Assembly (NCBI GenBank): GCA_014191195.1 | Contig: BJGZ01000010.1 | Span: 1-64,000 of the forward strand | Direction of reading: 5' to 3' | From: Chlorobiota bacterium | Lineage (GTDB): Bacteria; Bacteroidota; Ignavibacteria; Kapaibacteriales; UBA961 | DNA length: 64,000 nt | In this document: piece by piece, positions 535 to 40,784 of the stretch | Layout of the letters: every line of letters starts with the position of its first letter | Numbering within the stretch: the stretch's first letter is position 1 | Notes under the pieces: model-generated | The model's input: only the letters and a program-made list of their open reading frames with translations | The model's database searches: none | Told to the model about the DNA's origin: nothing | Program-made: the position numbers and the translations under genes

Positions 535-1764
535 TTACTCATATCGTAATGCCTCTATGGGGTCTAAACATGCTGCTTTCCAAGCTGGATAACTTCCAAA
601 TATTAATCCCATTAAAGTACATGTCCCTACGCTAAATAATACCCAAAACAAAGGAATTTGTGTCTCTGCATTTATTAATGTACTTAATCCATTAGCTGCA
701 ATTACTCCAAAAGCAATACCAATAATTCCCCCTAACTGGCACAATGTAATTGCTTCTATGATAAATTGAAATAGTATCCAATTCTTTTTTGCTCCAATTG
801 CTTTTCTTATTCCTATCTCTCTTGTTCTTTCTTTAACAGACACAAGCATAATATTCATTATACCAACGCCTGCAGCTAGTAATGAAATAATACCAGATGC
901 AATCCCAAACATACTTAGATATCCAGTAAAGGAAGCAAATTGATTGCTTATCGTTTCATTTGTTTCGATTTCAAATGAATTATCTTCCCAAGGTTTCACG
1001 TTTCTTAATGAACGCATTGTACCAATTGATTCATCAACTGTCTGCAAGAAGGATTGTTTGGAATAAGCCTGCCCTGTAATATCTACAGATGAACCCCATT
1101 CATCTGTGTGGTATCTCATGAATGTAGATATAGGTATCATTATTTGATTATCTAAACTTTTACCAAACATCGATCCTTGTGATTTTAATATTCCAACAAT
1201 CAAGAACTGTTGATTTTTTAATGTTAGATATTCTCCAATTGCTTTACGACCATTAAATAATTTAAGTACAATATCATTTCCTATGATAGCAGTAGATGTT
1301 GCAGATAATACTTCTTGAGCAGAAAACGATCTTCCTTCAATAATCTGCATATTTTTTATAGTAAAAAAATTCTCATCACAACCAATAAGTGAAATATCTG
1401 GATCGGTAGATAAATTGCCTACTTTCGCTGTATATCCATCCGTTTCATCAGAAATACTTATTAAGTCAGTACTTTCTATATTATTCTTAAATTCTTTTGC
1501 CTGTGCATATGTAATATCTTTTCTATTTCTATATTTTCTCCATGAATTTCCTATATTAATTGTAGGTGTTCTTCTAATCATAAAAGAGTTTTCACCCATT
1601 GCAACTAATTGAGTATTAACCGCAGAATCTAATGTTGCGACAGCCGATCCAGCGCCAATAATAGAAAAAATTCCAATTGATATACTTAATAAGGTTAATA
1701 TCGTTCTTAATGTATTAGAACGAACTGATTCAAATGCTTGTAATATACTTTCAAGAATATTCAT
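535..1764 (-). CDS. MacB/FtsX-type ABC transporter permease (second copy)
   Basis: A 409-residue inner-membrane permease of the MacB type. One N-terminal TM helix (about residues 18-40) is followed by a large periplasmic MacB_PCD-like domain (about 45-270), three C-terminal TM helices, and the cytoplasmic coupling segment 'ERTREIGIRKAIGAK'. It has no ATPase domain, which is supplied by the gene at 3009-3728. It starts 3 bases after the stop of the related permease at 1768-3012. The two proteins are clearly paralogous but diverged, so they probably form a heterodimer or serve alternative pumps. It is the last gene of a five-gene efflux operon. Confidence 0.88.
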   Translation of the reverse strand: MNILESILQAFESVRSNTLRTILTLLSISIGIFSIIGAGSAVATLDSAVNTQLVAMGENSFMIRRTPTINIGNSWRKYRNRKDITYAQAKEFKNNIESTDLISISDETDGYTAKVGNLSTDPDISLIGCDENFFTIKNMQIIEGRSFSAQEVLSATSTAIIGNDIVLKLFNGRKAIGEYLTLKNQQFLIVGILKSQGSMFGKSLDNQIMIPISTFMRYHTDEWGSSVDITGQAYSKQSFLQTVDESIGTMRSLRNVKPWEDNSFEIETNETISNQFASFTGYLSMFGIASGIISLLAAGVGIMNIMLVSVKERTREIGIRKAIGAKKNWILFQFIIEAITLCQLGGIIGIAFGVIAANGLSTLINAETQIPLFWVLFSVGTCTLMGLIFGSYPAWKAACLDPIEALRYE

Positions 1765-1767
1765 TAA

Positions 1768-3012
1768 TTATGACTCATATCGTAATGCTTCTACAGGATC
1801 CATCTTAGAAGCGCGAATTGCAGGAATCATACCAGCAAGGATTCCAACGAATATTGATACCAATGCAGCAATTAACAATAACTGTGGGGGAACATAGGGA
1901 GTTAAAAAATCTGCTTGAGGAATAAACTGCACAATTACAAAAATTAAAGCTGAACAAAAAACAAATGCTATCAAAGCACCTACAAAACATAATGAAGCAG
2001 CTTCTACAAGAAATTGGAATAAAATAGAAGAACTTTTAGCTCCTAGACTTTTTCTAATTCCTATTTCTTTCGTTCTTTCTGTTACAGACACAAACATGAT
2101 ATTCATAATGCCAATGATGCCAACTGTAAAAGAGAGTAATGTTAATCCAATACCTATTCCCCATGTTGACAATCTGAGTGTTTGTACTTCATCTCGAAAT
2201 GTTTGAGTTTCATTTATAGAAAAATCGTCTTCTTCTCCCGGTGCAACATTTCTTATGCCTCGCATTAATCCAGTGGTTTCAGATCTAACCTCATCCATTA
2301 ATTCTGCTTTACCAGCTTTTACTGCTATCGAAACACTTCTGCCAATTGAACCATAAATACCAAAGAAAGTAGAAATTGGAATTATAACTTGATTATCCAC
2401 AAAATCCATCATCATATTTCCACGTTTTATAATAACTCCAACAACTTCGAATGATCTGCCTCCAATTTTAATATTTCTACCAATGGCATCACCATCAGGA
2501 AATAAGGTACTAGCAACATTCCAACCAAGGACTGCGGAATTTGTACTATATTGATCTTCAAACTGAGAAAAAAACCTACCATATGAAATTGTACCAGCTG
2601 GTAAATTTGCATAGGAAAAGGGCACTCCAATTATCGAAATACCTGTTATGTTTTTATTCTTTACTTGGATAGTACCACCCCATTTTCTTGCTTCAGGTAG
2701 GCTTAATTCGGCTGTATTAATCTTTTTGCAGAATTCTAAAGCTTGCTGATATGTGATGTCTTTTCTGGCCATAGTTTTTCGCCAATTTTGTCCACCAGAC
2801 CAACTCCATTTATCAACATACATCACATCAGTACCAAGCAAATTAACTGTAGACTCTAGGGCTGCATCTAAGCCATTTAAGAACCAACCCATTAAAATCA
2901 CAAAAGTAATTCCAATCACTACGCCAAGTGTTGTAAGAAAAGAACGCAATTTATTTGCTTGCAATCCTTCAATAGCAATCCTTGCGGCTTCACCTAATTC
3001 ACTAATTTTCAT
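1768..3012 (-). CDS. MacB/FtsX-type ABC transporter permease (first copy)
   Basis: A 414-residue permease with an N-terminal TM helix (about 25-47), a periplasmic MacB-like domain and three C-terminal TM segments. The coupling motif '[15 protein letters not shown]' comes just after the second TM. Its ATG overlaps the stop of the upstream ATPase gene by 4 bases (3009-3012), a sign of translational coupling. With the ATPase, adaptor and TolC-like genes it should form a tripartite MacAB-TolC-like pump that exports a peptide, lipid-linked compound or drug. The substrate is unknown. Confidence 0.88.
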
Positions 3013-3728
3013 TCCGTACCCTGAGAATACTGTGAAACGGTATTTTTTTCATCGGATTCTACTTTACCATCTCTAATTCTGATGATTCTTTGTGCATATC
3101 TTGCAACATCTTCTTCGTGAGTAACAAGTATGACGGTATTTCCTTTTAACCATAAATCTCTAAATAGCTTCATGATTTCAATACCTGTTTTAGTATCTAA
3201 ATTACCTGTTGGTTCATCGGCTAAAATGATAGATGGATTTGTAACTAAAGCTCTAGCAACAGCTACTCTTTGTCTTTGCCCACCAGATAATTCATTTGGT
3301 TTATGAGTTAATCTTTCTCCTAATCCAACATCTTGTAATACTTTGATTGCTCTAGATTTTCTTTCTGAAGATGAAACTCCACTATATATCAAAGGTAATT
3401 CAATATTTTTAACTGCTGTTGCTCTTGGTAAAAGATTAAATGTTTGAAATACAAATCCAATCTCACGATTTCTGATCTCTGCTAAATCATTATCGCTCAT
3501 TTCATTAACATCTAAACCTTTAAAAGTATAGATACCAGTACTTGGAGTATCCAAACATCCAAGAACATTCATCAATGTTGATTTTCCAGATCCGGATGGT
3601 CCCATTAAAGCAACATATTCATTTGGATATATATCCAATGAAATGTCTCTTAAAGCAAATACTTGCTCGCCACCCATTTCATATACTTTAGAAATATTTT
3701 GGATATGTATTAAAGGATTATCATTCAT
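3009..3728 (-). CDS. MacB/LolD-type ABC transporter ATP-binding protein
   Basis: A 239-residue ABC ATPase. It has Walker [10 protein letters not shown] (residues 43-51), Q-loop Gln95, signature LSGGQ (147-151), Walker B IILADEP (167-173) and a switch His at about 204. Sequence style and context (two FtsX-like permeases, an adaptor and an outer-membrane factor) place it in the LolD/MacB/FtsE group that powers mechanotransmission pumps rather than lipid-bilayer importers. All catalytic motifs are intact. The stop overlaps the next permease gene by 4 bases. Confidence 0.93.
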
Positions 3729-3752
3729 AGTATTTAGGTCAATAAAAAATGT

Positions 3753-5024
3753 TTATTTCTTCATAGAAGAAACCGAAGAAACAGTGTCAATTTTAATAAT
3801 TGAGCCATCTTGTAAAAGTTTATTAATTGCCTGAAAACTACCGCTTATAATTTCTTGTCCAACTTTGAGTCCCTTTTTGATTTCTATAAAGCCATGATCA
3901 CTAAGTCCGGTTTCAACTTTTACCATTTTGGCTTTATCTCCATTTTTTAGAAAAATTACAGAAGGAGGTCTTTTTGAATTTGATTTTTTCTTTTCTTCTT
4001 GTTGTTGAATGCTGCCTGAAGACATTTCAGATTCTGATGCTTGCACAGATCGTACAGTAACTGACTGTAATGGTACAGATAATACATTGGGGTGAGTTTC
4101 GGTGCTTATCTCAACAGAACAGCTCATGCCTGGGCGCAAGCGCATATCTTTATCAATAATTCTTATTCGCACTTCGAAATTTGTTACTTCTTCTTGTGTA
4201 CCAGCAGCAGAAGTTTTTGCTGAATGCCCTATTTCATACACATATCCTATTAATTCTTCATCTGGCATTGCATCTACTCTAATACGGACTGTATCACCAA
4301 TTTTTACAAATACGATATCGTTTTCATCTACATCTACCCATGCATTCATAATATTCAAATCAGCGATGCGCATCATTTCTGTTCCCTGCATTTGTGCAGT
4401 TCCAACTACTTTTTCTCCAGCTTCCACTGAAAGCGAAGTAACTGTACCACTCATAGGAGAATAAAGAGTAGTTCTAGATGCTTGGGACCTCATTTGCTTT
4501 AAAGCTGAAAAAGCCCTAGTATAATCGGAACCTGAAGATCTAAATCGTGATAGAGCTTGTTCCAAAGTAGATTTTGCTCTGTCGAATTCTTCTCTAGATG
4601 CATATTGTTTAGCGTATAAATCACTGATACGTTTAAAATCAGCTTGGGCTCTTTCCATTTCTGCTTTAGTAGCGTCTATCGCAATTTTAGAAGCATCAGC
4701 TGAAGCAGTAAATTGTTCTAATTGTGATTGGACAATATCTGGCTGAATGCGAACTAATAATTGTCCTTTATTTACAGAGTCACCATCTCTAAAACCAAGA
4801 AACATTATTTCTCCACTTGCCTCTGAAGAAATCTTAACTTCAGTTTCTGGCCTAATTTTACCAATTGCACTTACTTTTTGTGTAATTGTTCTCAGTTCAA
4901 CTTTTTCTGTCTTTATCGCAATGCTTTCATCTTTATTCTTTAATAAAAAATAAGACAATACAATTGCAAAAATTGCAACTGAAATAAGCGTGATGTAAAG
5001 GGCTTTTCTAGATTTCTTAGCCAT
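3753..5024 (-). CDS. Periplasmic adaptor subunit (HlyD/MacA family)
   Basis: A 423-residue membrane-fusion protein. A single N-terminal TM anchor (about residues 8-28) is followed by a barrel-sandwich half-motif, a long helical hairpin rich in Ala, Glu and Lys (about 90-185), the second lipoyl half, a beta-barrel and a membrane-proximal domain. A Ser/Gln/Lys-rich linker (about 325-350) interrupts the C-terminal part. It bridges the MacB-type permeases encoded downstream to the TolC-like channel encoded just upstream, with 24 bases to the ATPase gene. Confidence 0.9.
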   Translation of the reverse strand: MAKKSRKALYITLISVAIFAIVLSYFLLKNKDESIAIKTEKVELRTITQKVSAIGKIRPETEVKISSEASGEIMFLGFRDGDSVNKGQLLVRIQPDIVQSQLEQFTASADASKIAIDATKAEMERAQADFKRISDLYAKQYASREEFDRAKSTLEQALSRFRSSGSDYTRAFSALKQMRSQASRTTLYSPMSGTVTSLSVEAGEKVVGTAQMQGTEMMRIADLNIMNAWVDVDENDIVFVKIGDTVRIRVDAMPDEELIGYVYEIGHSAKTSAAGTQEEVTNFEVRIRIIDKDMRLRPGMSCSVEISTETHPNVLSVPLQSVTVRSVQASESEMSSGSIQQQEEKKKSNSKRPPSVIFLKNGDKAKMVKVETGLSDHGFIEIKKGLKVGQEIISGSFQAINKLLQDGSIIKIDTVSSVSSMKK

Positions 5025-5060
5025 AATAATGTATCAATGTTATAAGTAAAAATGTCAGAT

Positions 5061-6407
5061 TTACATAGAGCCGAGTGCAAACTTTACTTGCACTTGTGCA
5101 TCAAAATAATTGTACACAGCATTTACACGATTAATTTTTGCTGTTATCAACTGTGTATTTGCAGTCAAATAATCCACAATAGTAGCTGTTCCAACTTCAA
5201 AGCGTTCTTTGGCGCTTTCAAAATTCTGATTTGCTGCAACTATACTTCTATTTGTTATTTCTAATTGTTTCTCGGCCGAGTATATATTCAATAAACCAGA
5301 TTGTAATTGAATTCTGATTGTTTGTTGTGTCCTTTCTTTTTCTAATTCATTTTGTTTAGACTGGAGTTCGGCATTTTGTATCTGCTGATTTGTTCTAAAG
5401 GCATCAAAAAGAGGGATATCAACATTTAATGCGACAAAAGATCTTCCAAATAAATCAAAATCTTTGACTTCGGAATTAGCCCAACTCCAACCACCTGTAG
5501 CAGAGATACTTGGATAGTATCCACTTTTTGAGGCAATAATTGAAAATTTGGAAGCTTCTATTCTACTTTTAGCTGCAGCAAAATCTGGCCTATTTGCTAA
5601 TGCTTGGGCATAAGCTTCATCAACAGATGAGAATTTTGAGCGAAAATTTGATATTTCTGATTCAGTTATTTCTTTAGGAAAACTATTTTCGGCAAATTCT
5701 GCTTTTTCACCTGGTGAATGTGCCATTGTAGAAAGCAAATTTGCTTTAGCAATACTTACTTGATTTTCTGATTGAACTAGCTCTAATTCTCTATTGCCAT
5801 TATCTGCTTCTTGAGCATAAATGATTGCAATTGGGGCAATACCAGCTTCAAATCTTGCTTTTGCTCTTTCTAATTCTTTTTTACCTAGTAATAGATTTTC
5901 TGATCTTACAGCAACAAGTTTTGCATTTCTAAGAATTGTTAAATATTGTTGTATCACGGCTAATTTTACTTGATTTCTTGTTTGCTCTACTGTTTGTAAA
6001 CTAGCATTGATATTTGTGGTTGCAAGATCTATATTAGCTTCTCTAGAAAAACCATTGAACAAAGTGATATTTGCAAGAGTAGACGCAGAATATTGATCTG
6101 CAGGAGCTCTAAATCCACCAATATTAAATTGCCCACCCCCTAATTGATTAAGCCTTCTAGAATATCCCATAGATGCATTTACTTGTGGTAAATATCCGCC
6201 AAAGGCTGCTTTTTGATTTGCTTGGGCCGCAGGGATTTGCGCCATGGCTAACATCATATCTAGATTTGCTGAATCTGCAATTTTCATACATTCATCTAAA
6301 GAATAAATTTTTATACTTCCAGTTGAAGATGTTTGTGAATATGAACACATATTCTGAAAAAAGAACAAAGGGATAGATACTAATACAAGGTGGACAAGTG
6401 ATTTCAT
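5061..6407 (-). CDS. TolC-family outer membrane efflux protein
   Basis: A 448-residue protein with a signal peptide (first about 25 residues, ending near CSYSQ). It has two repeated OEP halves, each with long coiled helices. Typical TolC-family phrases are seen, such as 'ANRPDFAAAKSRIEASKF' and, near the C-terminus, 'FEVGTATIVDYLTANTQL'. It should trimerise as the outer-membrane channel of the pump encoded downstream, and is the first gene of the five-gene efflux set. A short imperfect stem-loop lies at 6465-6493 between it and the preceding gene. Confidence 0.92.
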   Translation of the reverse strand: MKSLVHLVLVSIPLFFFQNMCSYSQTSSTGSIKIYSLDECMKIADSANLDMMLAMAQIPAAQANQKAAFGGYLPQVNASMGYSRRLNQLGGGQFNIGGFRAPADQYSASTLANITLFNGFSREANIDLATTNINASLQTVEQTRNQVKLAVIQQYLTILRNAKLVAVRSENLLLGKKELERAKARFEAGIAPIAIIYAQEADNGNRELELVQSENQVSIAKANLLSTMAHSPGEKAEFAENSFPKEITESEISNFRSKFSSVDEAYAQALANRPDFAAAKSRIEASKFSIIASKSGYYPSISATGGWSWANSEVKDFDLFGRSFVALNVDIPLFDAFRTNQQIQNAELQSKQNELEKERTQQTIRIQLQSGLLNIYSAEKQLEITNRSIVAANQNFESAKERFEVGTATIVDYLTANTQLITAKINRVNAVYNYFDAQVQVKFALGSM

Positions 6408-8660: not shown

Positions 8661-9794
8661 ATGTTGCAAAGGCTAAACTTTATTGATATACTAAGGGGAT
8701 TGGCTTGTATTTGGATGATAGAAACACATGTAGTAAATGCATTCCTACCCGATGGATATAAAGATAATCTCATATTTAATCTAATAGATATAAGCAATGG
8801 ATTTGTTGCTGTTTGTTTTATTTTTTGTGCAGGAGCTGGCTTTAGGCTTGCTTTAGAATCAAAATTTAAAGAGTACATAACAATGAGTGCTCCATTACTT
8901 AGTTATGTGAAACGTTTATTATTTATCCTTGCTATTGCATATTGGATTCAAACGCCAGAATTTTCTTTGCAAAAAACACTTCAGTCAAGTTCAGAAGAAT
9001 TTTCAAAATTCTTTATGTGTAATGTATTGCAGCTAATTGTTGCTTCTTCATTACTTTCTCTAGCGCTTCTGATAAGTACCAGATCATTTTTCAGATTTAG
9101 AATAGCATCATATCTAATACTTATTATTTTCTTTTGGTGTACCCCTTTTATATGGTCAATACCTCAAGATCAATTAGGATGGATTCCACTATTTTTGAGA
9201 ATGTATATTGTTACTCAACCAACCTCTTTATTCCCATTGTTTCCATGGGCTGGATATTATTTTGCGGGAATAATAGTAACGGATTTGTTTTTGATTTCAC
9301 AAGACAAAGATTCAATAATAAAAAAAATGATCATAGCTTCTTTGGGAATAACAGCATTTGCTTTTATCAGTAAAGAGTATCTATGGCAATATTATCCTAG
9401 TACACTTAATTGGTGGTATGTTTCACCCGTTCATGCTTTATTTAGAACTGCTGGAGTAATGATATTATTTTCTTTATTCTATATGTTTAAAGATTATTGT
9501 ACGGGTAAGAAATCAGCTTTTATGCAATTACTTGGTAAAGAATCATTGGTAGTATATGTAGGGCAAGGGATGCTAATTTATGGATCTGTTGCTAGTAAAG
9601 GACTTCAGTATTTTCTCCCAATTATCGTAAGTCCATTAGAGGTATTATTGCTTACATCTGGAATTACTGCTTCTATGGGTGCATATGCAAATATGTGGAA
9701 TCACTTTAAAAGGCATTCTCCAGAACAAGCTCAATGGGTTCTCTATGCATTCTGTACTTTATTTGTTATAGCTTTTATGATTATCCCAGTTTAA
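8661..9794 (+). CDS. Multi-TM acyltransferase-like protein (HGSNAT/DUF1624 type)
   Basis: A 377-residue integral membrane protein with about ten hydrophobic segments. The N-terminus 'RLNFIDILRGLACIWMIETH' is the hallmark of the heparan-alpha-glucosaminide N-acetyltransferase/DUF1624 and related acyltransferase-3 group. The His after the first TM is the residue thought to accept the acyl group. It is likely to transfer acetyl or acyl groups across the inner membrane onto a cell-surface saccharide. It is divergently oriented from the secreted gene at 7447-8481 (179-base shared upstream region). The acceptor is unknown. Confidence 0.75.
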   Translation: MLQRLNFIDILRGLACIWMIETHVVNAFLPDGYKDNLIFNLIDISNGFVAVCFIFCAGAGFRLALESKFKEYITMSAPLLSYVKRLLFILAIAYWIQTPEFSLQKTLQSSSEEFSKFFMCNVLQLIVASSLLSLALLISTRSFFRFRIASYLILIIFFWCTPFIWSIPQDQLGWIPLFLRMYIVTQPTSLFPLFPWAGYYFAGIIVTDLFLISQDKDSIIKKMIIASLGITAFAFISKEYLWQYYPSTLNWWYVSPVHALFRTAGVMILFSLFYMFKDYCTGKKSAFMQLLGKESLVVYVGQGMLIYGSVASKGLQYFLPIIVSPLEVLLLTSGITASMGAYANMWNHFKRHSPEQAQWVLYAFCTLFVIAFMIIPV

Positions 9795-10181
9795 ATGTTT
9801 CAAAATAAACAAACCGTGAGAAGAGTAAGATACAGAAAGATTGCAGTATAATGAAAGAAGATGAAGTGAGAAAAACATGTCTATTGATACATGGAATGCT
9901 AAACTTTTGATATGTAAAGAAAATAAAGATAAAAATTTATCATTAGACTATGTACATGCATACATACTTAATGAACAATATGCAACATATTGATATATAT
10001 AGACCTTAGGTGTATTATTAAGCACATTATATTAGATATTGAACAGTAATTATTCTAGGTATTTTAACTATTAATATTGAGTAGTTAATAACAAAGATGA
10101 AAAACAGTTATTCAAACTAAGAAAAAACACTATTTTTGCGCATTCAATTATCACAGTAATCTAATTTTTTGGAATAGTACC
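9795..10181 (+). other. 387-base intergenic region
   Basis: No gene of believable length is present on either strand and no tRNA-like fold was seen. Very A+T-rich. It contains a promoter-like element near its right end (10131-10138). No terminator was found after the gene at 8661-9794. Confidence 0.6.
10131..10138 (+). promoter_or_regulatory. Candidate -7 promoter element (TAnnTTTG)
   Basis: The octamer TATTTTTG matches the Bacteroidota -7 consensus TAnnTTTG and lies 43 bases before the ATG of the CADD-like gene. A clear -33 TTTG partner was not seen, so support is partial. Confidence 0.4.
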
Positions 10182-10871
10182 ATGACAAGTCAAGAATTTC
10201 TTGAAAAACTCGATGCTATTATAAATGATCGTCATTTGCTACAGCATCCTTTCTATCAAATGTGGAATACCGGTGATTTATCACTGCAGATGCTACGTGA
10301 ATATGCTTTTGAATATTATCAACAAGTACATCATTTCCCAACATATGTAAGTGCAACACATTCAAAGTGTGATGATATTGAGATTCGTCAAATGCTTTTA
10401 GAAAATCTAATTGAAGAAGAGCATGGGCCGAATAATCATCCAGAATTATGGCGTAGATTTGGTGATGCACTAGGTATTAGCCGCGAAGAAATGATGTCCC
10501 GTAAATATTTGCCGCATACAAAAAAATCTGTAGAAATATTAAAAGACTTAGCATCTAGGAATAATCCAGCAGAAGGTTTAGCAGCATTATATGCTTATGA
10601 ATCACAAATTCCTGAAGTATGCACTACAAAAATTGAAGGTTTAAAGAATAAATATAATCTTGATAATGAAGATGCATTAGTATTCTTTGAAGTTCACGAG
10701 CATGCTGATGAAATCCACAGAGAAGTTACAAGAGAAGCATTAGTTCGTTTATGTACAACTGATGAAAATAAGCACATTGCTTTAGATGCCGCAAGAGAGG
10801 CTGCAGATGCATTAAATCTATTATTAGATGGTGTATATGAAACCTATTGTGTAGAGCGCATAGCAGCTTAA
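10182..10871 (+). CDS. CADD-family diiron protein, probable self-sacrificing p-aminobenzoate synthase
   Basis: A 229-residue all-helical protein of the TENA/PqqC-like fold, close in length to chlamydial CADD (CT610). Ligand and active-site residues line up at a constant offset of two from the chlamydial numbering I recall: Glu79, His86, Glu140, His172, Asp176 and His179 for the metal pair; Tyr25, Tyr41 and Tyr139; and Lys150. In Chlamydia this enzyme makes p-aminobenzoate for folate by cleaving its own tyrosine side chain, with a lysine proposed as the amino donor. No folate genes flank it. It is a single transcription unit with its own promoter-like element and a strong terminator. Confidence 0.85.
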   Translation: MTSQEFLEKLDAIINDRHLLQHPFYQMWNTGDLSLQMLREYAFEYYQQVHHFPTYVSATHSKCDDIEIRQMLLENLIEEEHGPNNHPELWRRFGDALGISREEMMSRKYLPHTKKSVEILKDLASRNNPAEGLAALYAYESQIPEVCTTKIEGLKNKYNLDNEDALVFFEVHEHADEIHREVTREALVRLCTTDENKHIALDAAREAADALNLLLDGVYETYCVERIAA

Positions 10872-10890
10872 TGATAGAATAGAGAAAGAT

Positions 10891-10926
10891 ATCCGCTTTG
10901 GGAAAACTCGCAAAGCGGATTTTTTT
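10891..10926 (+). terminator. Intrinsic terminator after the CADD-like gene
   Basis: A perfect 10-bp stem (10891-10900 with 10911-10920) and 10-base loop, followed directly by six or more T. It lies 20 bases after the stop codon. Confidence 0.92.
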
Positions 10927-11052
10927 GTGATTTGGTTATTTGTGGATAACGTTGATTGCTAATAGCTATAATTGAGCTGAATGGAGTAGCATGGGCGTTG
11001 GTGAAGTGTCTTAGCTTTCGTATTTTAAGCATCTATTTACATTAAGTATATT

Positions 11053-11952
11053 ATGTGTCGTTTTGTTGCATATATCGGTACGCCAGTTTTGGCAAACGAT
11101 CTTTTATATAGGCCTAAATACTCCTTGATTGCAGCTCAGAGCATGAATGCAGGCGAAATGAGTGTTCAGGTTAATGGAGATGGTTTTGGTATTGGATGGT
11201 ATGCGCCTGATTTAGACAATGAGCCTTGTGTATTTAGAAGTATTAAACCCGCCTGGAGCGATCAAAATTTACGTCATTTAGCAAGAAAGATTTATTCTCC
11301 TGTCATTTTTGCTCATATTCGAGCAGCTTCCCAAGGGATGTCTGTTGAAGAGTATAATTCACATCCATTTTCATATGGAAAATTAACATTCATGCATAAT
11401 GGTGTTATAGGTGGATTTAAAGAAATTCGCAGAAAGCTTCTAAGAAGATTAAGAGATACTGCTTATGATGCAATTTTAGGTTCTACGGATTCTGAGCATT
11501 TATTTGGATTATTTCTTAATCATATAGCAGATCCTATGGGTAATGTTACATGTGATGAGATGGTTGAAGCAATTCAGAAAGCTCTTTTTGATTTAAGTGA
11601 ATTACTTATTGAATGTAATGTAAAACATCATTCTTATATCAATGTTTGCATAACAAATGGTGTCAGTTTAATTGCAGTTCGATACACAACAAATCAGAGT
11701 GTTCAGCCGGCATCATTATATTATATGTATGGCAAAGAATATCATTGCAGAGCAGAGCATTGTACTATGGAACCAGATAATGGAAAGCCATCTGCAATTG
11801 TTATTGCATCCGAGCCATTCACATATAAAAGATCTGAATGGATGAAAGTAGAGAGAAATTCATTGTTTATCGTTGATGAGACAATGAAGCTGAGTTTTAA
11901 AAATGTAGACCTTCCAATAGAGCATGCATTATTTGAAAATCAGATATTATAA
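11053..11952 (+). CDS. Class II glutamine amidotransferase (EgtC/YafJ-like)
   Basis: A 299-residue Ntn-type amidotransferase. The start MCRFVAY puts Cys2 as the N-terminal nucleophile after Met removal. Family motifs follow: NGDGFGIGWY (about 42-51), FAHIRAAS (about 89-96), NSHPF and FMHNG (about 108-122). The protein stands alone rather than fused to a synthase domain. The physiological substrate (gamma-glutamyl amide or peptide) is not predictable. It sits 51 bases before nuoL on the same strand, so it may be co-transcribed with the complex I block, although a functional link is unknown. Confidence 0.85.
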   Translation: MCRFVAYIGTPVLANDLLYRPKYSLIAAQSMNAGEMSVQVNGDGFGIGWYAPDLDNEPCVFRSIKPAWSDQNLRHLARKIYSPVIFAHIRAASQGMSVEEYNSHPFSYGKLTFMHNGVIGGFKEIRRKLLRRLRDTAYDAILGSTDSEHLFGLFLNHIADPMGNVTCDEMVEAIQKALFDLSELLIECNVKHHSYINVCITNGVSLIAVRYTTNQSVQPASLYYMYGKEYHCRAEHCTMEPDNGKPSAIVIASEPFTYKRSEWMKVERNSLFIVDETMKLSFKNVDLPIEHALFENQIL

Positions 11953-12003: not shown

Positions 12004-13968
12004 ATGGTTGAATTGATTTACTTAGTACCACTTTTGCCTTTAATTGGTTTTTTAATTATTGGCTTTTTTGGAAAAAAACTCAACAATGAAAAACTTGTTG
12101 GTGCAATTGCTAGTATTGCTGTTGGCGGTGCTTTTTTGGTTGCACTCGGCGCTTTTTTACAATTAACTGGTGAATCTTCCGAAGCAAGAACCGAGCATAT
12201 TGTCCGATTATTTACTTGGATTCAAGCAGGTTCTTTTCATATTGATATAGCATATCAAGTAGACCAACTATCAATACTGTATACCTTGATTATCACTGGT
12301 ATTGGCACTTTGATACACATTTATTCAATTGGATACATGCATGGAGATAAGAGCTTTCCACGTTTTTTTGCTTATCTGAATTTATTTGTATTCATGATGT
12401 TAAACCTTGTACTAGCCAATAACTTTGTTCTTACATTTCTTGGCTGGGAAGGTGTAGGATTATGTTCATATCTTCTTATTGGATTTTGGTATGACAGAAA
12501 ATTCGAAGGTTCTCATATAGTTTGGACAGGTGATGCAGCAAAAAAGGCATTTATTGTTAATCGAATTGGTGATTTTGGAGTATTGATTGCAATGTGCCTG
12601 ATCTATATGCGATTTGGTTCTCTGGAATATACAACAGTGAATATGGCTGCTGCCTCTGGAGGAATTGATGCAGGATTAATTACTGCAATTACTTTGCTTT
12701 TATTCTTAGGTTGCACAGGGAAGTCTGCTCAAATTCCATTAGGTATTTGGTTGCCTGATGCGATGGCAGGTCCAACACCAGTATCTGCTTTGATCCATGC
12801 TGCAACTATGGTAACAGCCGGTATATTCCTTATAGCTCGTAACTCAACATTATTTGCTTTATCTGATACAACAATGGCAATTATTACAGGTGTTGGTATT
12901 ACAACAGCCTTAATAGCCGCTACAATTGGTATAGTTCAAAATGATATCAAAAAAGTATTAGCATATTCTACCGTAAGTCAATTAGGTTTTATGTTTATGG
13001 CTTTAGGAGTTGGAGCCTATACAGCTGCAGTGTTTCATGTGATGACGCATGCCTTTTTTAAAGCATTATTATTCCTAGGATCTGGATCTGTAATACACGG
13101 AATGCATGAAGAACAAGACATACAAAAAATGGGTGGATTAAAGAAGTATATGCCTCAGACCTATATTACATTCTTATTAGGAACCATTGCAATTTCAGGA
13201 ATTTTCCCATTTTCAGGTTTCTTCTCTAAAGATGAAATATTATGGAATGCATATGCAAATGGAAGTCCAATATTATGGGGTGCTGGTGTTTTAGCAGCAT
13301 TTTGTACAGCATTTTATATGTTCAGACTATTATATCTAACATTTTACGGAGAGGAAAGATTTGACCATCATCATGTTCATCCTCATGAATCTCCGGTGAC
13401 AATGACATTGCCCTTATGGATTTTAGCTATTCTGTCTGTTTTTGGTGGCTTATTAGGAATACCTAAAGCATTGTCAGGTGGTGCCGATATCAATATTCTT
13501 GAACATTGGTTAGAGCCAATCTTTGCAAATGCCAATAGCATTTTAGCTAGCCATCATACTAATGCACATCATCATTCATTGGCCTTAGAATGGGGTTTAA
13601 TGGCAGCATCATTAGCTATCGCTATAATTGGAATACTATATGCAGCATCTTTGTATAAAAAATCTTCAAGTAAACCAGCTGAAATGGCAGCAAAGAATAA
13701 AGGACTCTATAATATTCTTTGGAATAAATATTTTGTTGATGAGATTTATCACAATGTATTCGTAGCTCCGATGTATAAGATATCTTTAGATTTTCTTTGG
13801 AAGATAGTAGATGTGCAAATAATAGATGGTATCGTAAATGGCAGTGCTAGAGCAATTGCAGTAAGCGCAGAAAATCTCAGAAAGATACAATCTGGTATTG
13901 CTCAAAACTATGCTTTAATGATGTTATTTGGCATTGTTGCTATTATTGCTTGGATGGTGTTTGCATAA
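12004..13968 (+). CDS. nuoL: NADH-quinone oxidoreductase subunit L
   Basis: A 654-residue polytopic antiporter-like subunit of complex I. The conserved stretches 'GWEGVGLCSYLLIGFW' with the key Glu, 'GKSAQIPLGIWLPDAM', 'GPTPVSALIHAATMVTAG' and 'KKVLAYSTVSQLGFM' with charged residues in the membrane are all present. The C-terminal part carries the lateral helix region and a last TM. Length is normal. It pumps protons together with the NuoM and NuoN subunits encoded next to it. The usual neighbours nuoJ and nuoK are not in front of it, where an amidotransferase gene lies instead. Confidence 0.97.
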   Translation: MVELIYLVPLLPLIGFLIIGFFGKKLNNEKLVGAIASIAVGGAFLVALGAFLQLTGESSEARTEHIVRLFTWIQAGSFHIDIAYQVDQLSILYTLIITGIGTLIHIYSIGYMHGDKSFPRFFAYLNLFVFMMLNLVLANNFVLTFLGWEGVGLCSYLLIGFWYDRKFEGSHIVWTGDAAKKAFIVNRIGDFGVLIAMCLIYMRFGSLEYTTVNMAAASGGIDAGLITAITLLLFLGCTGKSAQIPLGIWLPDAMAGPTPVSALIHAATMVTAGIFLIARNSTLFALSDTTMAIITGVGITTALIAATIGIVQNDIKKVLAYSTVSQLGFMFMALGVGAYTAAVFHVMTHAFFKALLFLGSGSVIHGMHEEQDIQKMGGLKKYMPQTYITFLLGTIAISGIFPFSGFFSKDEILWNAYANGSPILWGAGVLAAFCTAFYMFRLLYLTFYGEERFDHHHVHPHESPVTMTLPLWILAILSVFGGLLGIPKALSGGADINILEHWLEPIFANANSILASHHTNAHHHSLALEWGLMAASLAIAIIGILYAASLYKKSSSKPAEMAAKNKGLYNILWNKYFVDEIYHNVFVAPMYKISLDFLWKIVDVQIIDGIVNGSARAIAVSAENLRKIQSGIAQNYALMMLFGIVAIIAWMVFA

Positions 13969-13994
13969 GACATATCAACATAAGACATTTAAAT

Positions 13995-14570
13995 ATGAAT
14001 AATACACATCCGAATAATCAAGATATCGTGCAATCGATGAATGAATCATCATTATCAGTATTAGTATATTCACTTACGATAGTAGTGGTATTATTAGTAT
14101 CATTTATGCTTTACTTTCCACAGGCATTAGCAATTGGATCATTAGATGTTTCTAGTTTGCCAAAGCTTAATGCATTCCTGAATGGATCTTGTTGTGTATT
14201 ATTAATGCTTGGTGTTTATTTTATTAAGAATAAAAAAAGACAAGCACATAAGACAGTAATGCTCAGTGCATTTACATTATCAGTGTTGTTCTTATTGTCT
14301 TATGTATTATATCATTCACAAGCACCGGCTACGCATTATGGTGGTGAAGGTATAATCAAGATAATATACTTTTTCATATTGATAACACATATAATATTGG
14401 CTGCTTGTATAGTTCCTTTAGCTTTATTTACATTGCTCCGGGCATGGAGAAGTGAGTTTGTAAGGCATAAGGCAATTGCAAAGTGGACATTTCCCATATG
14501 GTTATATGTAACGATAACAGGCGTAATCGTATATTTTATGATTTCGCCATATTATCAAGTTAAGCCTTAA
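13995..14570 (+). CDS. DUF420 multi-TM protein (heme-copper oxidase associated family)
   Basis: A 191-residue membrane protein with about five TM helices. I chose the ATG at 13995; an upstream in-frame ATG (13950) would overlap nuoL by 19 bases and adds a non-hydrophobic leader. The pattern 'LPKLNAFLNG', a His after the second TM, 'SYVLYHSQ', 'HYGGEG', 'ITHIILA' and 'PIWLYVTITGVIVYFM' fits DUF420, often found beside heme-copper oxidase genes. Conserved His residues in and near helices could bind heme or copper; this is inference. It is inserted between nuoL (26 bases away) and nuoM (81 bases away). Confidence 0.8.
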   Translation: MNNTHPNNQDIVQSMNESSLSVLVYSLTIVVVLLVSFMLYFPQALAIGSLDVSSLPKLNAFLNGSCCVLLMLGVYFIKNKKRQAHKTVMLSAFTLSVLFLLSYVLYHSQAPATHYGGEGIIKIIYFFILITHIILAACIVPLALFTLLRAWRSEFVRHKAIAKWTFPIWLYVTITGVIVYFMISPYYQVKP

Positions 14571-14651
14571 GCATATTAATATGCATATATAATTTAGAGT
14601 AAAAGCCGCAAGGCATTTTGATATCATTTGTCAGTTCCTAAGCGTGACACA

Positions 14652-16253
14652 ATGCCACATACCGAATCAGCTGGAATGTTATTATTAACATTACTATTAC
14701 CATTATTTGGATTTATAGCCGTGCTATTTATAGATAAAGCACAAGAAAAGGCTATACGTTTTACTACAATGATGATATCCTTGCTAACCTTTGGGTTTTC
14801 ACTTCCCTTATGGTTTTCTTTCAATAGTTCTATTGATGGATTTCAGTTCTACACAAATATTCCTTGGATATCTTCTACAGATTCAGGGTTTAGAATTGGC
14901 ATTGATGGGATGTCTTTATTATTAGTATTGCTAACAACATTCATTATGCCAATAGCATTGCTTTCATCCTTTGAACCAATTAAGAAAAGAGTAAAAGAAT
15001 ATTATGCAATGATGCTTCTTCTAGAATTGGGGATGCTGGGTGTTTTTATATCATTAGATACGATGGTATTTTATGTTTTTTGGGAATTAATCTTAATACC
15101 CATGTATTTCTTAATCGGAATATGGGGTGGCAAAGATAGAATCTATGCAGCTGTTAAGTTCTTCCTCTATACTTTAGTTGGCTCATTGTTAATGCTATTA
15201 GCTATAGTATGGTTGGGATTATATGCAAAAGGTTTACCGGGTGGGCATTTTACAACAGACTTCTTAGTATTAAGAGAAATTGCCCCTTCGATCCCAATGG
15301 ATATCCAAATATGGCTATTCTTGGCATTTGCACTTTCATTTTGTATAAAAGTGCCATTAATGCCATTCCATACATGGTTGCCTGATGCCCATGTGCAAGC
15401 ACCAACAGCAGGATCTGTTATACTTGCCGGTGTACTTCTTAAGATGGGTACATATGGATTAATACGATTTAATGTAGAATTGTTCCCAATGGCCATGCAT
15501 CAATTTGCCGTCCCAATTGCTTGGTTATCAGTTGCGGGAATTATTTATGGTGCATTAGTAGCTATGGTTCAAACTGATATTAAGAAACTTGTTGCATATT
15601 CTTCGGTGAGTCATCTAGGTTTTGTGGTTTTGGGTATTGCATCTATGACACCAGAGGGACTTCAAGGAGCAATAATACAAATGGTTAATCATGGATTATC
15701 CACAGGTATGTTGTTTTTATGTGTTGGTGCATTATATGAAAGACGCCATACCAGAGAAATATCTGAATTTGGTGGAATAACCAAAGTAATGCCAAAATTT
15801 GCTGTCTTTTTTGTCATTGCAATACTTGCCTCAGTTGGATTACCAGGCCTTAATGGTTTTATTGGTGAATTTCTAACATTATTTGGAGCATTCCAATCTC
15901 CATTTTTGAATAATCCATGGTTTAGCATTTTAAGTTCTACAGGAGTAATTTTTTCTGCTGTGTATTTATTGTGGATGTTCCAAAGAGTAATGTTTGGAAC
16001 AAATGATAATCCATCCAATCATTCATTGAAAGATTTGCATAGAAGTGAATATTGGCAATTAGTACCAATGGTCATATTTATCGTTTGGATTGGTATATAT
16101 CCATCTACCTTTATGTCCAAATCTGAACTGTATGTTCAAACATTAATTGGTAAAGTTGAAAAAAAGATATTTGGAACAACAAAATATCCTTTAATAAAAG
16201 CAGCAACATCTGTAGAACCCGGAACTTCGAATGAAGTTCATGGCGGACATTAA
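14652..16253 (+). CDS. nuoM: NADH-quinone oxidoreductase subunit M
   Basis: A 533-residue antiporter-like subunit with about 14 TM helices. An in-frame TTG at 14628 is possible, but the ATG at 14652 is preferred. Diagnostic segments are 'FWELILIPMYFLIGIWGG' with the essential Glu, 'PLMPFHTWLPDAHVQAPT', 'KKLVAYSSVSHLGFV' and 'MVNHGLSTGMLFL'. Function is proton pumping in complex I. It is placed between the DUF420 gene and a small unknown ORF, followed by nuoN. Confidence 0.97.
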   Translation: MPHTESAGMLLLTLLLPLFGFIAVLFIDKAQEKAIRFTTMMISLLTFGFSLPLWFSFNSSIDGFQFYTNIPWISSTDSGFRIGIDGMSLLLVLLTTFIMPIALLSSFEPIKKRVKEYYAMMLLLELGMLGVFISLDTMVFYVFWELILIPMYFLIGIWGGKDRIYAAVKFFLYTLVGSLLMLLAIVWLGLYAKGLPGGHFTTDFLVLREIAPSIPMDIQIWLFLAFALSFCIKVPLMPFHTWLPDAHVQAPTAGSVILAGVLLKMGTYGLIRFNVELFPMAMHQFAVPIAWLSVAGIIYGALVAMVQTDIKKLVAYSSVSHLGFVVLGIASMTPEGLQGAIIQMVNHGLSTGMLFLCVGALYERRHTREISEFGGITKVMPKFAVFFVIAILASVGLPGLNGFIGEFLTLFGAFQSPFLNNPWFSILSSTGVIFSAVYLLWMFQRVMFGTNDNPSNHSLKDLHRSEYWQLVPMVIFIVWIGIYPSTFMSKSELYVQTLIGKVEKKIFGTTKYPLIKAATSVEPGTSNEVHGGH

Positions 16254-16282
16254 TAATGAATTTCAGTGAAGGATACATCTAA

Positions 16283-16543
16283 GTGGCTAATCTATTAAGA
16301 AAAATCTTCGAAAAACCTTATGACTGGAAAAAAAACGGTCATGATATCACAAATCAATGGAAATCTCTTAAAGTTGGTGATACTGTTGAATTTGCTATGA
16401 CGGTTACCGAAGATATAGTATATACAATAGAACATATCTATGCCGATTCAGCAGAAGCTTCTATTAGAGTACAATCTAAAGATGGAAGTGCCGCCCAGGC
16501 ATATCGCGTTGGTTTGGTAATGTTACGACCATGTTCAAAATAA
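16283..16543 (+). CDS. Unknown 86-residue protein between nuoM and nuoN
   Basis: I do not recognise a family. It is soluble in appearance: a basic N-terminal segment (about 1-25) then alternating beta-type sequence (about 30-83). The start is GTG at 16283; a Shine-Dalgarno-like GAAGGA lies at 16268-16273, 9 bases before it, and no ATG is available until residue 39. It is 29 bases after nuoM and 40 bases before nuoN on the same strand, so probably translated with complex I subunits. It may be an accessory or assembly protein; there is no direct evidence. Confidence 0.7.
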   Translation: MANLLRKIFEKPYDWKKNGHDITNQWKSLKVGDTVEFAMTVTEDIVYTIEHIYADSAEASIRVQSKDGSAAQAYRVGLVMLRPCSK

Positions 16544-16583
16544 GACCAGAAAACAAAAGAGAATTTAATCAAGGAATATATTG

Positions 16584-18017
16584 ATGGTACAAGATTTACT
16601 TTTTACAGCACCCTTTACCTTTTTATCTGTTATGGCAATTATTGCTATGGTATTGGATGCTTTAATTGTTAACAGTTCCAGAATTACATTTATTTTTAGT
16701 GCTATTACACTTCTTTTTAGTGGTATCCTTGGTATATCAACTTTTGGACTACATGGCATTGGATTTAATGGAATGGTTACAGGCGGTGGATTTGCTGCAT
16801 ATTTTGATATTCTTTTTTCTATTGGCGGATTATTAACAATACTTACTTCAAGACAATATTTGCAAAGAGAAAATATAGAGCATGATGAATTTTATTCATT
16901 AGTCTTATTTGCAGTTGCTGGAATGATGCTAATTGCACATTCAAATCATTTATTAATCCTATTTATAGGCATTGAAGTGATGTCGGTTTCATTCTATATC
17001 CTTTCAGGATATATGCGCAATAATGCAAAATCAGTAGAATCTTCATTGAAATACTTTCTTTTAGGAGCATTTGCAACAGGGTTTTTGGTGTATGGAATAG
17101 CACTAATTTATGGCTCTACTGGAAGTATGGATTATAATCAAATAGCATTAAATATCAATAATAATGCACTTAATTTTCCAGCTTTATTGCCTGTTGGTGT
17201 AGCTTTAATAGTTATTGGGCTTAGTTTCAAGGCGGCGGCATTCCCATTCCATCAATGGGCTCCTGATGTATATCAAGGTGCGCCAACTATTGTTACAGCT
17301 TTTATGAGTACAGCAGGTAAAGCAGCTGCTTTTGCTGCATTTATTCCTATTGTTACTGTTTTAATGCCATCAGCCCCAGTGAAATTACAAATGATCTTTG
17401 CTGTGATGTCTGCAGCAACAATGTTGATTGGTAATATCAGTGCATTAGCTCAAACTAATATCAAAAGAATGCTTGCATTTTCATCTGTTGCACATGCTGG
17501 CTATATTATGATGGGCCTTGTGTCTGGATCACAATATGGTTATAGTGGCATAGTATTCTACTTAACTGCGTATATGTTTATGCAAATAGGTTCTTTTATT
17601 ATAGTTGCGATACTAGAAAGAAATGGCGAAAAATATTTAGAATTATCTGATTATGCTGGACTAAGCAAAAGGCATCCAGTATTAGCGGCATTTATGACAA
17701 TATTTATGTTTTCATTAGCTGGAATACCTCCATTTGCTGGATTCTTTGGCAAATATTTCTTGTTTACTGCTGCAATTGATGCTGGATTTTTATGGCTTAC
17801 ATTAGTTGGTGTTTTATCTTCAATAATCTCAGTCTATTTTTATATTGGACTCATCGTCAAAATGTATTTTACAGAACCTGAAGGCCAAAGAGAAGATAAT
17901 GAAGTTGGAATGTCTGGTCTATCACTTATCATAACAATTGCTGGAGTAATTGTACTTGGTATTTTACCTTCTGGTATTTTATCGATTGCCTCCAATTTGT
18001 TTAATAGTACACATTAA
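16584..18017 (+). CDS. nuoN: NADH-quinone oxidoreductase subunit N
   Basis: A 477-residue polytopic subunit. The ATG at 16584 is preceded by AAGGA at 16571-16575; a TTG one codon earlier is less likely. Conserved parts are 'FIGIEVMSVSFYILSGY', 'SLKYFLLGAFATGFLVYG', 'KAAAFPFHQWAPDVYQGAPT' and 'KRMLAFSSVAHAGYI'. It is the third antiporter-like subunit of complex I and ends the nuoL-M-N set. The aminotransferase gene follows after 32 bases. Confidence 0.97.
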   Translation: MVQDLLFTAPFTFLSVMAIIAMVLDALIVNSSRITFIFSAITLLFSGILGISTFGLHGIGFNGMVTGGGFAAYFDILFSIGGLLTILTSRQYLQRENIEHDEFYSLVLFAVAGMMLIAHSNHLLILFIGIEVMSVSFYILSGYMRNNAKSVESSLKYFLLGAFATGFLVYGIALIYGSTGSMDYNQIALNINNNALNFPALLPVGVALIVIGLSFKAAAFPFHQWAPDVYQGAPTIVTAFMSTAGKAAAFAAFIPIVTVLMPSAPVKLQMIFAVMSAATMLIGNISALAQTNIKRMLAFSSVAHAGYIMMGLVSGSQYGYSGIVFYLTAYMFMQIGSFIIVAILERNGEKYLELSDYAGLSKRHPVLAAFMTIFMFSLAGIPPFAGFFGKYFLFTAAIDAGFLWLTLVGVLSSIISVYFYIGLIVKMYFTEPEGQREDNEVGMSGLSLIITIAGVIVLGILPSGILSIASNLFNSTH

Positions 18018-34736: not shown

Positions 34737-37700
34737 TTATTTAAGGCTAATAACTTCTGTCCATTCTAAATTACCAGACTTCAATCTTACATAATATATG
34801 CCGGTTGGAAGGCTAGACAGATTAAGTTGATGCTTATATATTCCATTGTCATTTGTAGCAAAAGGTATAGATATCATATTCTGTCCTAATACGGATGTAA
34901 TTGAAAGTATACCTTGTACAGAAGTATAATGCTGTAATGATAAGGTTATAAAATCAGAAGCTGGATTTGGATATATAACAAATGACTTTTTTGTTGTCCA
35001 ATCTTGTAAAGACGTTGCTACTCTAAAGCCAAAAGATTGATTTTTGCATGAATTTATATCTCCAATTTCAACAACATAGTTTCCAGTGCCATTTCTTTGG
35101 GTATATGTTAATGTTCTTGATGTAGCTCCTTGTATCAGAACACTGTCTTTGTACCATTGATATGTAATGGCATCAGTAATACATGTTAAAGTAGAATCAT
35201 TTATTTTATCTATAATTGGCTGATAGGGGCGTTTATTGACTTTTACTGTAATTGAATCATATATAGCACATTGCAATGCATCTTTTATTTCAATTTTGAA
35301 TAAAGTAGTTGCATTAGGGCGCGCAATTGGAACTTGTTCGATTAAACTGCTCAAGCCACCACTGCTTGGTGTCCACTTATATTTATAAGGTGGTGTGCCA
35401 CCTTTAATAATAAGCGGTAATTGAATAGAATCACCTTCACAAATTATAAATGAATCTGGTAATTCAGTGCTTAATGCTGGATTGACAATTACATTAATCG
35501 TATCTTTTACTACACAAAAACTTCCATCAATTACTGTGCATATATACCTAGTTGTTTTTGCTGGATTTGCTAATGGCCTTGCAATAGAAACCGAACTTAA
35601 TCCTGTAACTGGTTCCCATGAATATTGATATGGTGGAAGGCCTCCAGAGACAATATTCCCAATTTCTTTTCCTGAAGACTCACATAAAACTATATCGGGT
35701 GCATAACCAAATTTAGTATTACAAGCCGCACCGGTTCTAAAATCTATTTCACCAGGAGTATTATAATTATTGCAGAACCAACGGCTAAAGTGTTGTGTAT
35801 TACCTTCGGCTAATTTATATTCAAATCTCATTCTCCATTTATAGGAAGAATTTACGGTAAGTGCGCTAATATTCTGAACGATATCTTTTAGGCCTTGGAT
35901 ATCTGTCCAAGTTGATGAAGTAACTGTATTCTTATTATTAAATGCTTGATTTAATGGTTTAACTTCTATAATTGGACGTATAAATGTTCTTCCAGTGAAA
36001 GGAAAATATGATGCACCAATATCAACAGAGCTTGAATTCTCGACTCGTAATGAAATAGTAATAGGAGAGTTAGTTCCTTTTTTATACTGCAATGTGCTAC
36101 CTTTAGACCCAGTATTTCCATTGCCATAAAATATAGCAACCATGCCATTTTTGGGGTTAAAGCCGGAATCGTATGATCTTGTAGAAACAGCTAAATCAGG
36201 GTAACCATCGCCATTTATATCTGCAATTGGAGCAATGCATGCGCCAGCGGTTTCTTGTATACCAGATGATTTATATGTCCAAACCGGTAAAGCAGATAGA
36301 CCATTCGAAGATCCAAGATACAGGCGTGATCTATGTGCATTTGCATTTGATGAATATAAGCCCGAACCCACAACGATATCCCCATATCCATCATTATTGA
36401 TATCACCAATAGACCCAGCAGACTTTCCAAATTCTAATGCTGTGATGTCTCCCTCGGCTGTCCATATTGATTGCTTCGATGCACCTTTTGCAGACCCTAA
36501 AAATAGCTGGATTATTCCTTCATTTGTTTGGCCTTTATCATATAAAGTAGATGCAATTAATACATCTGAAAATCCATCATTATTGATATCTCCAGCGGAT
36601 GCTACATTAGCGCCAAATAATGCTTTATATTGATTCCCAGAGACAATCCATCCTGCAGAATCTGCTATTCCATTAGGAATGCCATAATGAATATAAACGC
36701 GCCCTTGATCATCTTGAGCAGTATTAACATCATAAGATGGAGCTCCAATGATAATGTCATTTATGCCATCTCCATTGATATCACCTGCCGAAGCAACTGA
36801 TGCACCAAATTCTGATCCTGTTTGTGGGCCAATTTTAGACCAATAATTATTAGTATTCAAACCGTATTCGCTTCCAAACATAACATTCGCTTTACCTGCA
36901 TTTTCTATAGTAGAAGAAAATCCTGGTTCACCTAAAACAATATCTGAATATCCATCTAGATTGATATCACCTGAATAGCATAAAGAAAATCCAAATTTCC
37001 CACCAGCTTGTGAACCTGAGAACACAGTTTTTGCTTTTAGATCTAAACCTGTCTTAGAGCCATAATAGACATAAATTCTTCCAATATCTTGCTGTGAAGA
37101 ATTTGCATCATCAAAAAATGGAGCACTTACTATTAAGTCAGCATATCCATCTCCATTAAGATCTCCATTAGCTGCTATTGCATATCCAAAACCCGCTCCA
37201 TTTTGATTTGGCCCAATCAATTCATTCTTTGCCACAATATCTATTCCAGATGCACTACCATAATGAATGGTTACTCTTCCTTGATCTGCAGATATACCAT
37301 CATAAAATGGTGATCCAACTGCAAAATCACCAAATCCATCACCATTAAAATCTGCTCTGCCGGAAACTGTCCATCCATATTCTTCATTATCTTGTGCTGC
37401 TTCTATTACTTGATTAGGGCTTATTGCAAAAAAGATTTGTTTGCCATAAGAAACGGTGATAGCACCTTCTTGTAATTGACCATTTTTATAGTATGGTGCA
37501 CCGGCACATATATCTGATATTCCGTCTCCATTAATATCGCCACATATACCAATTGAAGTCCCAAGTTTGGCTCCAGCCTGATCACTTTCAGAAAATAATT
37601 TGCCAGTGCTAAGTCCTGTTTGAGAACCATAATATGTGAACACAGCACCTTCTTGATTTTGCCCTGATGAAAATCCTGGGCATCCAGCAATCATATCTGA

Positions 37701-40718: not shown

Positions 40719-40784
40719 TTGTAGAGTCTCCGCATGAAAATGATAAATACTAAGAATAATGCTACTCTTCAATGCAAAATTACC

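Follow-up and report, generated by a model that had tools for sequence, protein, structure and literature searches.

How a bacterium can supply the p-aminobenzoate (pABA) moiety of its folate when chorismate appears to be lacking is the question raised by one gene in the stretch of DNA analysed here, a 64-kb segment (the window) from a relative of Kapabacteria. The open reading frame begins with ATG and comprises 229 codons, and a sequence-only reading had assigned it to the CADD-type self-sacrificing pABA synthases, outside Chlamydiae. That assignment holds for the gene but is no longer news, as the Nitrosomonas enzyme NePabS has been published, and CADD has been mentioned in Wolbachia, Rickettsia, Chloroflexi, Sphingomonas and Nitrosomonas (PMC11965152). 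In the open-access literature, no work joining Kapabacteria with CADD or folate was found. The protein itself is an ordinary member of its family, and the noteworthy part is its intact, chorismate-free setting together with a hybrid active site.

Membership in the CADD family is indicated by a profile search, in which the window protein scores 285.4 bits against TIGR04305 (cut-off 200; E 2.6e-85). PqqC, BesC and TenA were considered as alternative families and rejected, all scores lying far under their own cut-offs (64.2 versus 240 bits for PqqC, TIGR02111; 20.4 versus 130 bits for TenA thiaminase II, TIGR04306). The nearest solved sequences are 4-aminobenzoate synthases: the best PDB matches are 9pj4 (E 6.9e-52), which carries the label '4-aminobenzoate synthase' and which we take to be NePabS, and 1rcw, the chlamydial CT610/CADD (E 1.1e-47). 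Identity to chlamydial CADD is 37-38%. An AlphaFold2 model built on an alignment of the window protein with 24 relatives (mean pLDDT 95.1) adopts the CADD fold; its top Foldseek match is 1rcw (E 1.0e-15, 1.4 A), and VIA-align superposes it on the same structure with a Z of 32.1 over 214 residues at 1.2 A, compared with 28.1 for the best PqqC. Judged by family, fold and residues, the gene is real and encodes a full-length CADD/PabS-type pABA synthase (Table 1).

Table 1. Features of the CADD-type locus, in window coordinates
Feature	Position	Strand	Basis
CADD/PabS-type self-sacrificing pABA synthase, 229 aa	10182..10871	+	profile, PDB alignment, multiple alignment, model
Product of this gene (predicted): 3-His/3-carboxylate dimetal site; Tyr25 and Lys150 as substrates; Tyr139/Phe168 pair	10182..10871		
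Tyr25 codon, predicted to supply the pABA ring	10254..10256	+	homology to NePabS Tyr25 / CtCADD Tyr27
Lys150 codon, predicted amino donor	10629..10631	+	homology to NePabS Lys159 / CtCADD Lys152
Phe168 codon; counterpart of CtCADD Tyr170 / NePabS Phe177, metal-choice residue	10683..10685	+	alignment
Rho-independent terminator, 12-pair hairpin followed by a U run	10891..10926	+	RNA fold, inverted repeat

The six ligands of the dimetal site (Glu79, His86, Glu140, His172, Asp176 and His179) are all present, as are Tyr25, Tyr41, Tyr45, Trp90, Tyr139 and Lys150. In the alignment with 1rcw, residue 5 of the query corresponds to residue 7 of the chain, an offset of two that is kept past the last ligand, and the structural alignment also starts by pairing 5 with 7. 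The ten positions named in the sequence-only reading, and the offset of two from chlamydial CADD that it gave, are all correct; it omitted the position of chlamydial Tyr170, which is Phe168 in the window protein. Its proposal of the same chemistry as CADD stands with respect to family, fold and the residues of published role, and does not extend to an identical active site, given Phe168.

Conservation of these residues was examined in an alignment of 111 rows (the window protein, 80 loci, 29 sequences from a survey of 395 genomes, and 9pj4), which are not independent cases, some being near-identical and L005-L034 partly repeating the genomes of L035-L114; the row of L103 contains an internal stop. 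In 108 of the 111 rows there is no change at Tyr25, Tyr41, Tyr45, Trp90, Lys150 or any of the six ligands, the three deviating rows being low-scoring compact relatives, and the Tyr25/Lys150 pair is invariant in every row, across several phyla. Positions 139 and 168 are Tyr/Phe in 104 rows, Tyr/Tyr in three, Phe/Phe in one (9pj4) and Val/Tyr or Phe/Tyr in the three compact relatives (L032-L034), a distribution that sampling tilts towards the window's own Tyr/Phe pattern, as relatives were picked for their resemblance to this protein and its kin.

Metal choice in this family is reported to be set by two near-metal residues, with Tyr/Tyr CADD using Mn/Fe and Phe/Phe NePabS using Fe/Fe (PMC11965152). 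The window protein fits neither subtype: CtCADD has Tyr at 141 and 170 and NePabS has Phe at 148 and 177, whereas here Tyr139 is paired with Phe168. By alignment, the active site is a hybrid, with Tyr139 as in chlamydial CADD and Phe168 as in Nitrosomonas PabS. The NePabS variant F148Y was about equally active with Fe/Fe and Mn/Fe, and F177Y switched to Mn/Fe (PMC11965152). Since Tyr139/Phe168 reproduces the F148Y pattern, dual use is predicted, and the window enzyme may be able to work with either Fe/Fe or Mn/Fe. A pABA synthase bound strictly to one of the two metal pairs has only slightly less than an even chance: Fe/Fe in NePabS depends on two Phe and Mn/Fe in CtCADD on two Tyr, and the metal switch is clearest at the F177Y site, where the Phe of the window protein argues for Fe/Fe (PMC11965152), but the near-equal activity of F148Y, which has the same Tyr/Phe pair, points back to dual use.

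Self-sacrificing chemistry would follow the published relatives. In NePabS, the ring derives from Tyr25 and the amino group from Lys159; both residues are indispensable, as is Tyr41, and Tyr45 and Trp99 are important (PMC11965152). The window protein would be a heme-oxygenase-like dimetal oxygenase whose six-ligand site activates O2, with the oxidising equivalent predicted to pass along the aromatic residues Tyr139, Trp90 and Tyr45/Tyr41 to Tyr25. The side chain of Tyr25 would be cut off, leaving Gly behind; O2 would provide two O atoms for the oxidation of this side chain, and Lys150 would aminate the cleaved ring to give pABA. Each protein chain would yield at most one pABA in a single turnover, destined for FolP.

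The genome carrying the window (2.41 Mb; draft of 29 contigs, completeness 100%) contains no protein with PF00425 (the domain responsible for catalysis in PabB, TrpE and MenF), which was found in 14 of 14 control genomes. The two shikimate enzymes covered by the search, chorismate synthase (PF01264; 14 of 14 controls positive) and dehydroquinate synthase (PF01761; 11 of 14), are likewise absent from it. Its sole aminotransferase-IV protein (PF01063) is IlvE (TIGR01122, 418 versus 245.6 bits); as a hidden PabC it was rejected, the best aminodeoxychorismate lyase model giving 130 bits against a cut-off of 308 and other models scoring lower. FolP (TIGR01496, 302 versus 162.6 bits) and FolK are present. 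The only TENA-family (PF03070) protein is the product of the CADD gene, and a check for further CADD homologues with PF03070 and TIGR04305, suggested in the sequence-only reading, gave no second one. That reading had also made the gene the sole route to folate should pabABC be lacking, and the genome agrees, with no PabB-type protein and IlvE as its only aminotransferase-IV. The absence of chorismate synthase altogether, which was not raised there, is the stronger point. With no PF00425 protein, chorismate synthase or dehydroquinate synthase, canonical pABA synthesis looks impossible. Without chorismate, tyrosine has to come from outside, or via imported phenylalanine, so that protein synthesis would be the path by which a scavenged ring reaches pABA. 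Genome content and the published relatives suggest that CADD is the sole endogenous pABA source, its ring derived from tyrosine that the cell must acquire. It is highly improbable that the missing genes are an assembly artefact, with canonical synthesis intact and CADD a second, redundant source: the 29 contigs of the draft leave some room for gaps, but its completeness speaks against them, and PF00425, PF01264 and PF01761 are all absent in each of 22 CADD genomes, among which are two entries given as a single contig (G043 and G059) and one given as two contigs (G267).

Those 22 genomes come from an even draw of 395 genomes of the phylum, in which genomes outside the lists of positives count as negatives. 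TIGR04305 matched above its cut-off in 27 genomes and more weakly in 5, while PF00425 was found in 363 and PF01264 in 361. PF00425 is absent from 24 of the 27 CADD genomes versus 8 of the 368 others, PF01264 from 22 versus 12, and both from 22 versus 5 (Fisher p 1.8e-28, 5.8e-23 and 9.3e-27, values that overstate the evidence, as genomes are treated as independent and most cases belong to one order). Among 49 genomes examined further, FolP was over its cut-off in 43 and PF01761 was found in 21; FolP is present and PF01761 missing in every one of the 22 double-negative CADD genomes. A second group is formed by G267 and G302 (family f19), whose proteins branch apart from the Kapabacteria clade in the tree. 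Exceptions are G271, G280 and G294, which combine CADD with PF00425, and G164 and G204, which have CADD and PF01264 without PF00425. G271 (L025, L071), from the same order, encodes CADD, chorismate synthase, a TrpE-like protein and an isochorismate synthase, with no FolP over the cut-off.

Two further genomes of the order, G326 and G353, possess FolP and gave no match to PF00425, PF01264, PF01761 or CADD; as they have no detectable pABA route, the lineage must be able to import pABA, unless a homologue was missed. Such genomes, the CADD without FolP in G271 and the many functions of the fold superfamily (PMC13108848) lend some weight to a CADD-fold oxygenase with another job, acting on a different substrate or in signalling, in cells that import pABA from the environment. 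This alternative is nevertheless improbable, since CADD presence tracks PF00425 absence and since the Tyr25/Lys150 pair never varies in the alignment, whereas the PqqC of 5vrc has His and Arg at these positions. The pattern is read here as folate synthesis without chorismate, fed by scavenged tyrosine, in bacteria that are not parasites. Overall, the locus very probably encodes a self-sacrificing CADD/PabS pABA synthase, which would be the sole endogenous source of pABA and would be able to use Fe/Fe or Mn/Fe.

Among named records, Candidatus Kapaibacterium sp. MYJ.27 (L035) comes nearest, with 98% identity over 229 aa. In a tree computed without L005-L024, L032-L034, L083, L085 and L103, the window protein belongs to a 45-row clade (support 96/97) given the label Kapabacteria, which was assigned from record titles and identity although some of these records carry other names, and this clade lies beside 24 cyanobacterial rows. 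CADD occurs in the filamentous cyanobacteria Okeania, Trichodesmium, Planktothrix and Spirulina (L076-L105; genomes G406-G420). Beyond the phylum survey, PF00425 was sought in the genomes of 35 of the 80 loci, whose completeness is not given, and was present in 20; the 15 without it comprise 10 of 11 Kapabacteria-like genomes, that of L097, one of Myxococcales, two of Neomarinimicrobiota and one of Pyrinomonadaceae. Classification covered 19 of 38 PF00425 matches (L133 not counted) and gave 15 isochorismate synthases above the TIGR00543 cut-off, two TrpE above the TIGR00564 cut-off, one TrpE-like protein below it and one salicylate synthase; none of the 19 passes a PabB cut-off. One cyanobacterial PF00425 protein is an isochorismate synthase in 11 of 13 genomes, and the other, stronger match, classified in one genome only (L118), is TrpE. 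Judging from these 19 of 38 matches, CADD in filamentous cyanobacteria probably also stands in for PabB.

Compact, divergent CADD-like proteins of 185-212 aa were observed at L032:1486-2124, L033:1492-2049 and L034:1492-2049. They score 75-151 bits, below the TIGR04305 cut-off, and keep Tyr25, Tyr41, Tyr45, Trp90 and Lys150; L032 lies between accB-like and accC-like genes. Among the weak-match genomes, G109 (L034), G160 and G365 (L032) have no PF00425 and G361 (L033) has one such protein; G109 and G365 have a weak CADD match only and so count against the co-occurrence.

The window gene had been described as solitary with its own terminator, which is borne out by a distance of 387 bp to the upstream gene and by the downstream hairpin (-18.1 kcal/mol, z -5.0 in RNA folding), detected separately as an inverted repeat. 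A dedicated terminator scan found none, probably because the gap between the perfect arms exceeds the loop of 8 that it allows. No folate gene is adjacent in the window neighbourhood. An upstream folate riboswitch or other RNA was considered and rejected, Rfam yielding one sub-threshold match over 9700-11100, to a CRISPR repeat model (24.5 versus 37 bits), which overlaps the terminator hairpin. A promoter scan returned 9 sites against 8.0 expected from shuffles, and an IMG/VR scan contained no virus-borne CADD relatives.

Directly downstream lies a gene for an EgtC-like class-II glutamine amidotransferase (window 11053-11952; 187 bits, below the TIGR03442 cut-off of 218.65), and just beyond are NuoL- and other proton-antiporter-type complex I genes (12004-18017). 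EgtC-like homologues occur in 27 of 81 CADD neighbourhoods and NuoL-type proteins in 23; functional synteny was rejected, as conservation extends beyond these genes to a wider block, which is taken to be order-level gene order and no pathway. Complex I requires quinone, yet this genome has neither chorismate synthase nor a MenF-type protein. Elsewhere in the window, MacB/FtsX-type permeases, an ABC ATPase, an HlyD-type fusion protein and an outer-membrane efflux protein form one block on the minus strand (535-6407), and two very long open reading frames of 2011 and 1350 aa lie at 34737-40772 and 53853-57905 (minus strand).

NePabS (NE1434, Nitrosomonas europaea) shares with the window protein its family, ligands, Tyr25, Tyr41, Tyr45, the Trp and the sacrificial Lys, and its gene likewise lies outside any folate-synthesis cluster (PMC11965152). 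Its host, a soil bacterium, resembles the window lineage in being no parasite; NePabS differs in having Phe where the window protein has Tyr139 and in carrying an additional loop insertion. CADD of Chlamydia trachomatis (CT610; 1rcw, 8va9) shares the fold, the ligands, the sacrificial Tyr and Lys and the equivalent of Tyr141, but has Tyr170 where the window protein has Phe168. In Chlamydia the gene sits in a cluster with folate genes (PMC1971073; PMC11965152), unlike the window gene, and Chlamydia is a parasite, in contrast to the apparently free-living lineage of the window. frC of Rickettsia is a TIGR04305 protein whose hosts, as here, lack chorismate or PabA/B/C; it has been proposed as a possible pABA path with an unknown precursor (PMC5615194). 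The rickettsial locus is degraded in almost all genomes, with folate synthesis eroding (PMC5615194), whereas the window gene, FolP and FolK are intact. In work on a Kapabacteria relative, the ability to synthesise aromatic amino acids is described as possibly missing from three metagenome bins, and the lineage is predicted to consist of facultatively anaerobic chemoheterotrophs, possibly predatory (PMC6338057).

A joint reading of these results, to which as a whole an even chance is given, is that a self-sacrificing pABA synthase frees folate synthesis from its need for chorismate. The shikimate route and aromatic amino acid synthesis would be gone in most sampled Kapabacteria and, separately, in f19, a family of the same class, with CADD as the gene that made chorismate loss affordable, and each folate ring would cost one protein molecule and one scavenged tyrosine. 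The same reading would have CADD replace PabB in chorismate-making filamentous cyanobacteria (Okeania, Planktothrix), and the Tyr/Phe active site would be the usual state of the family, in which the two enzymes studied so far would be marginal cases. If this is true, non-parasitic bacteria make a vitamin without chorismate, and the lineage offers a strict genetic background that forces pABA to come from CADD, as well as a natural Tyr/Phe enzyme for testing what sets metal choice and radical transfer. It would also give reason to seek CADD wherever pabB is missing, and, with one protein spent per pABA, the cost to the cell should be measurable.
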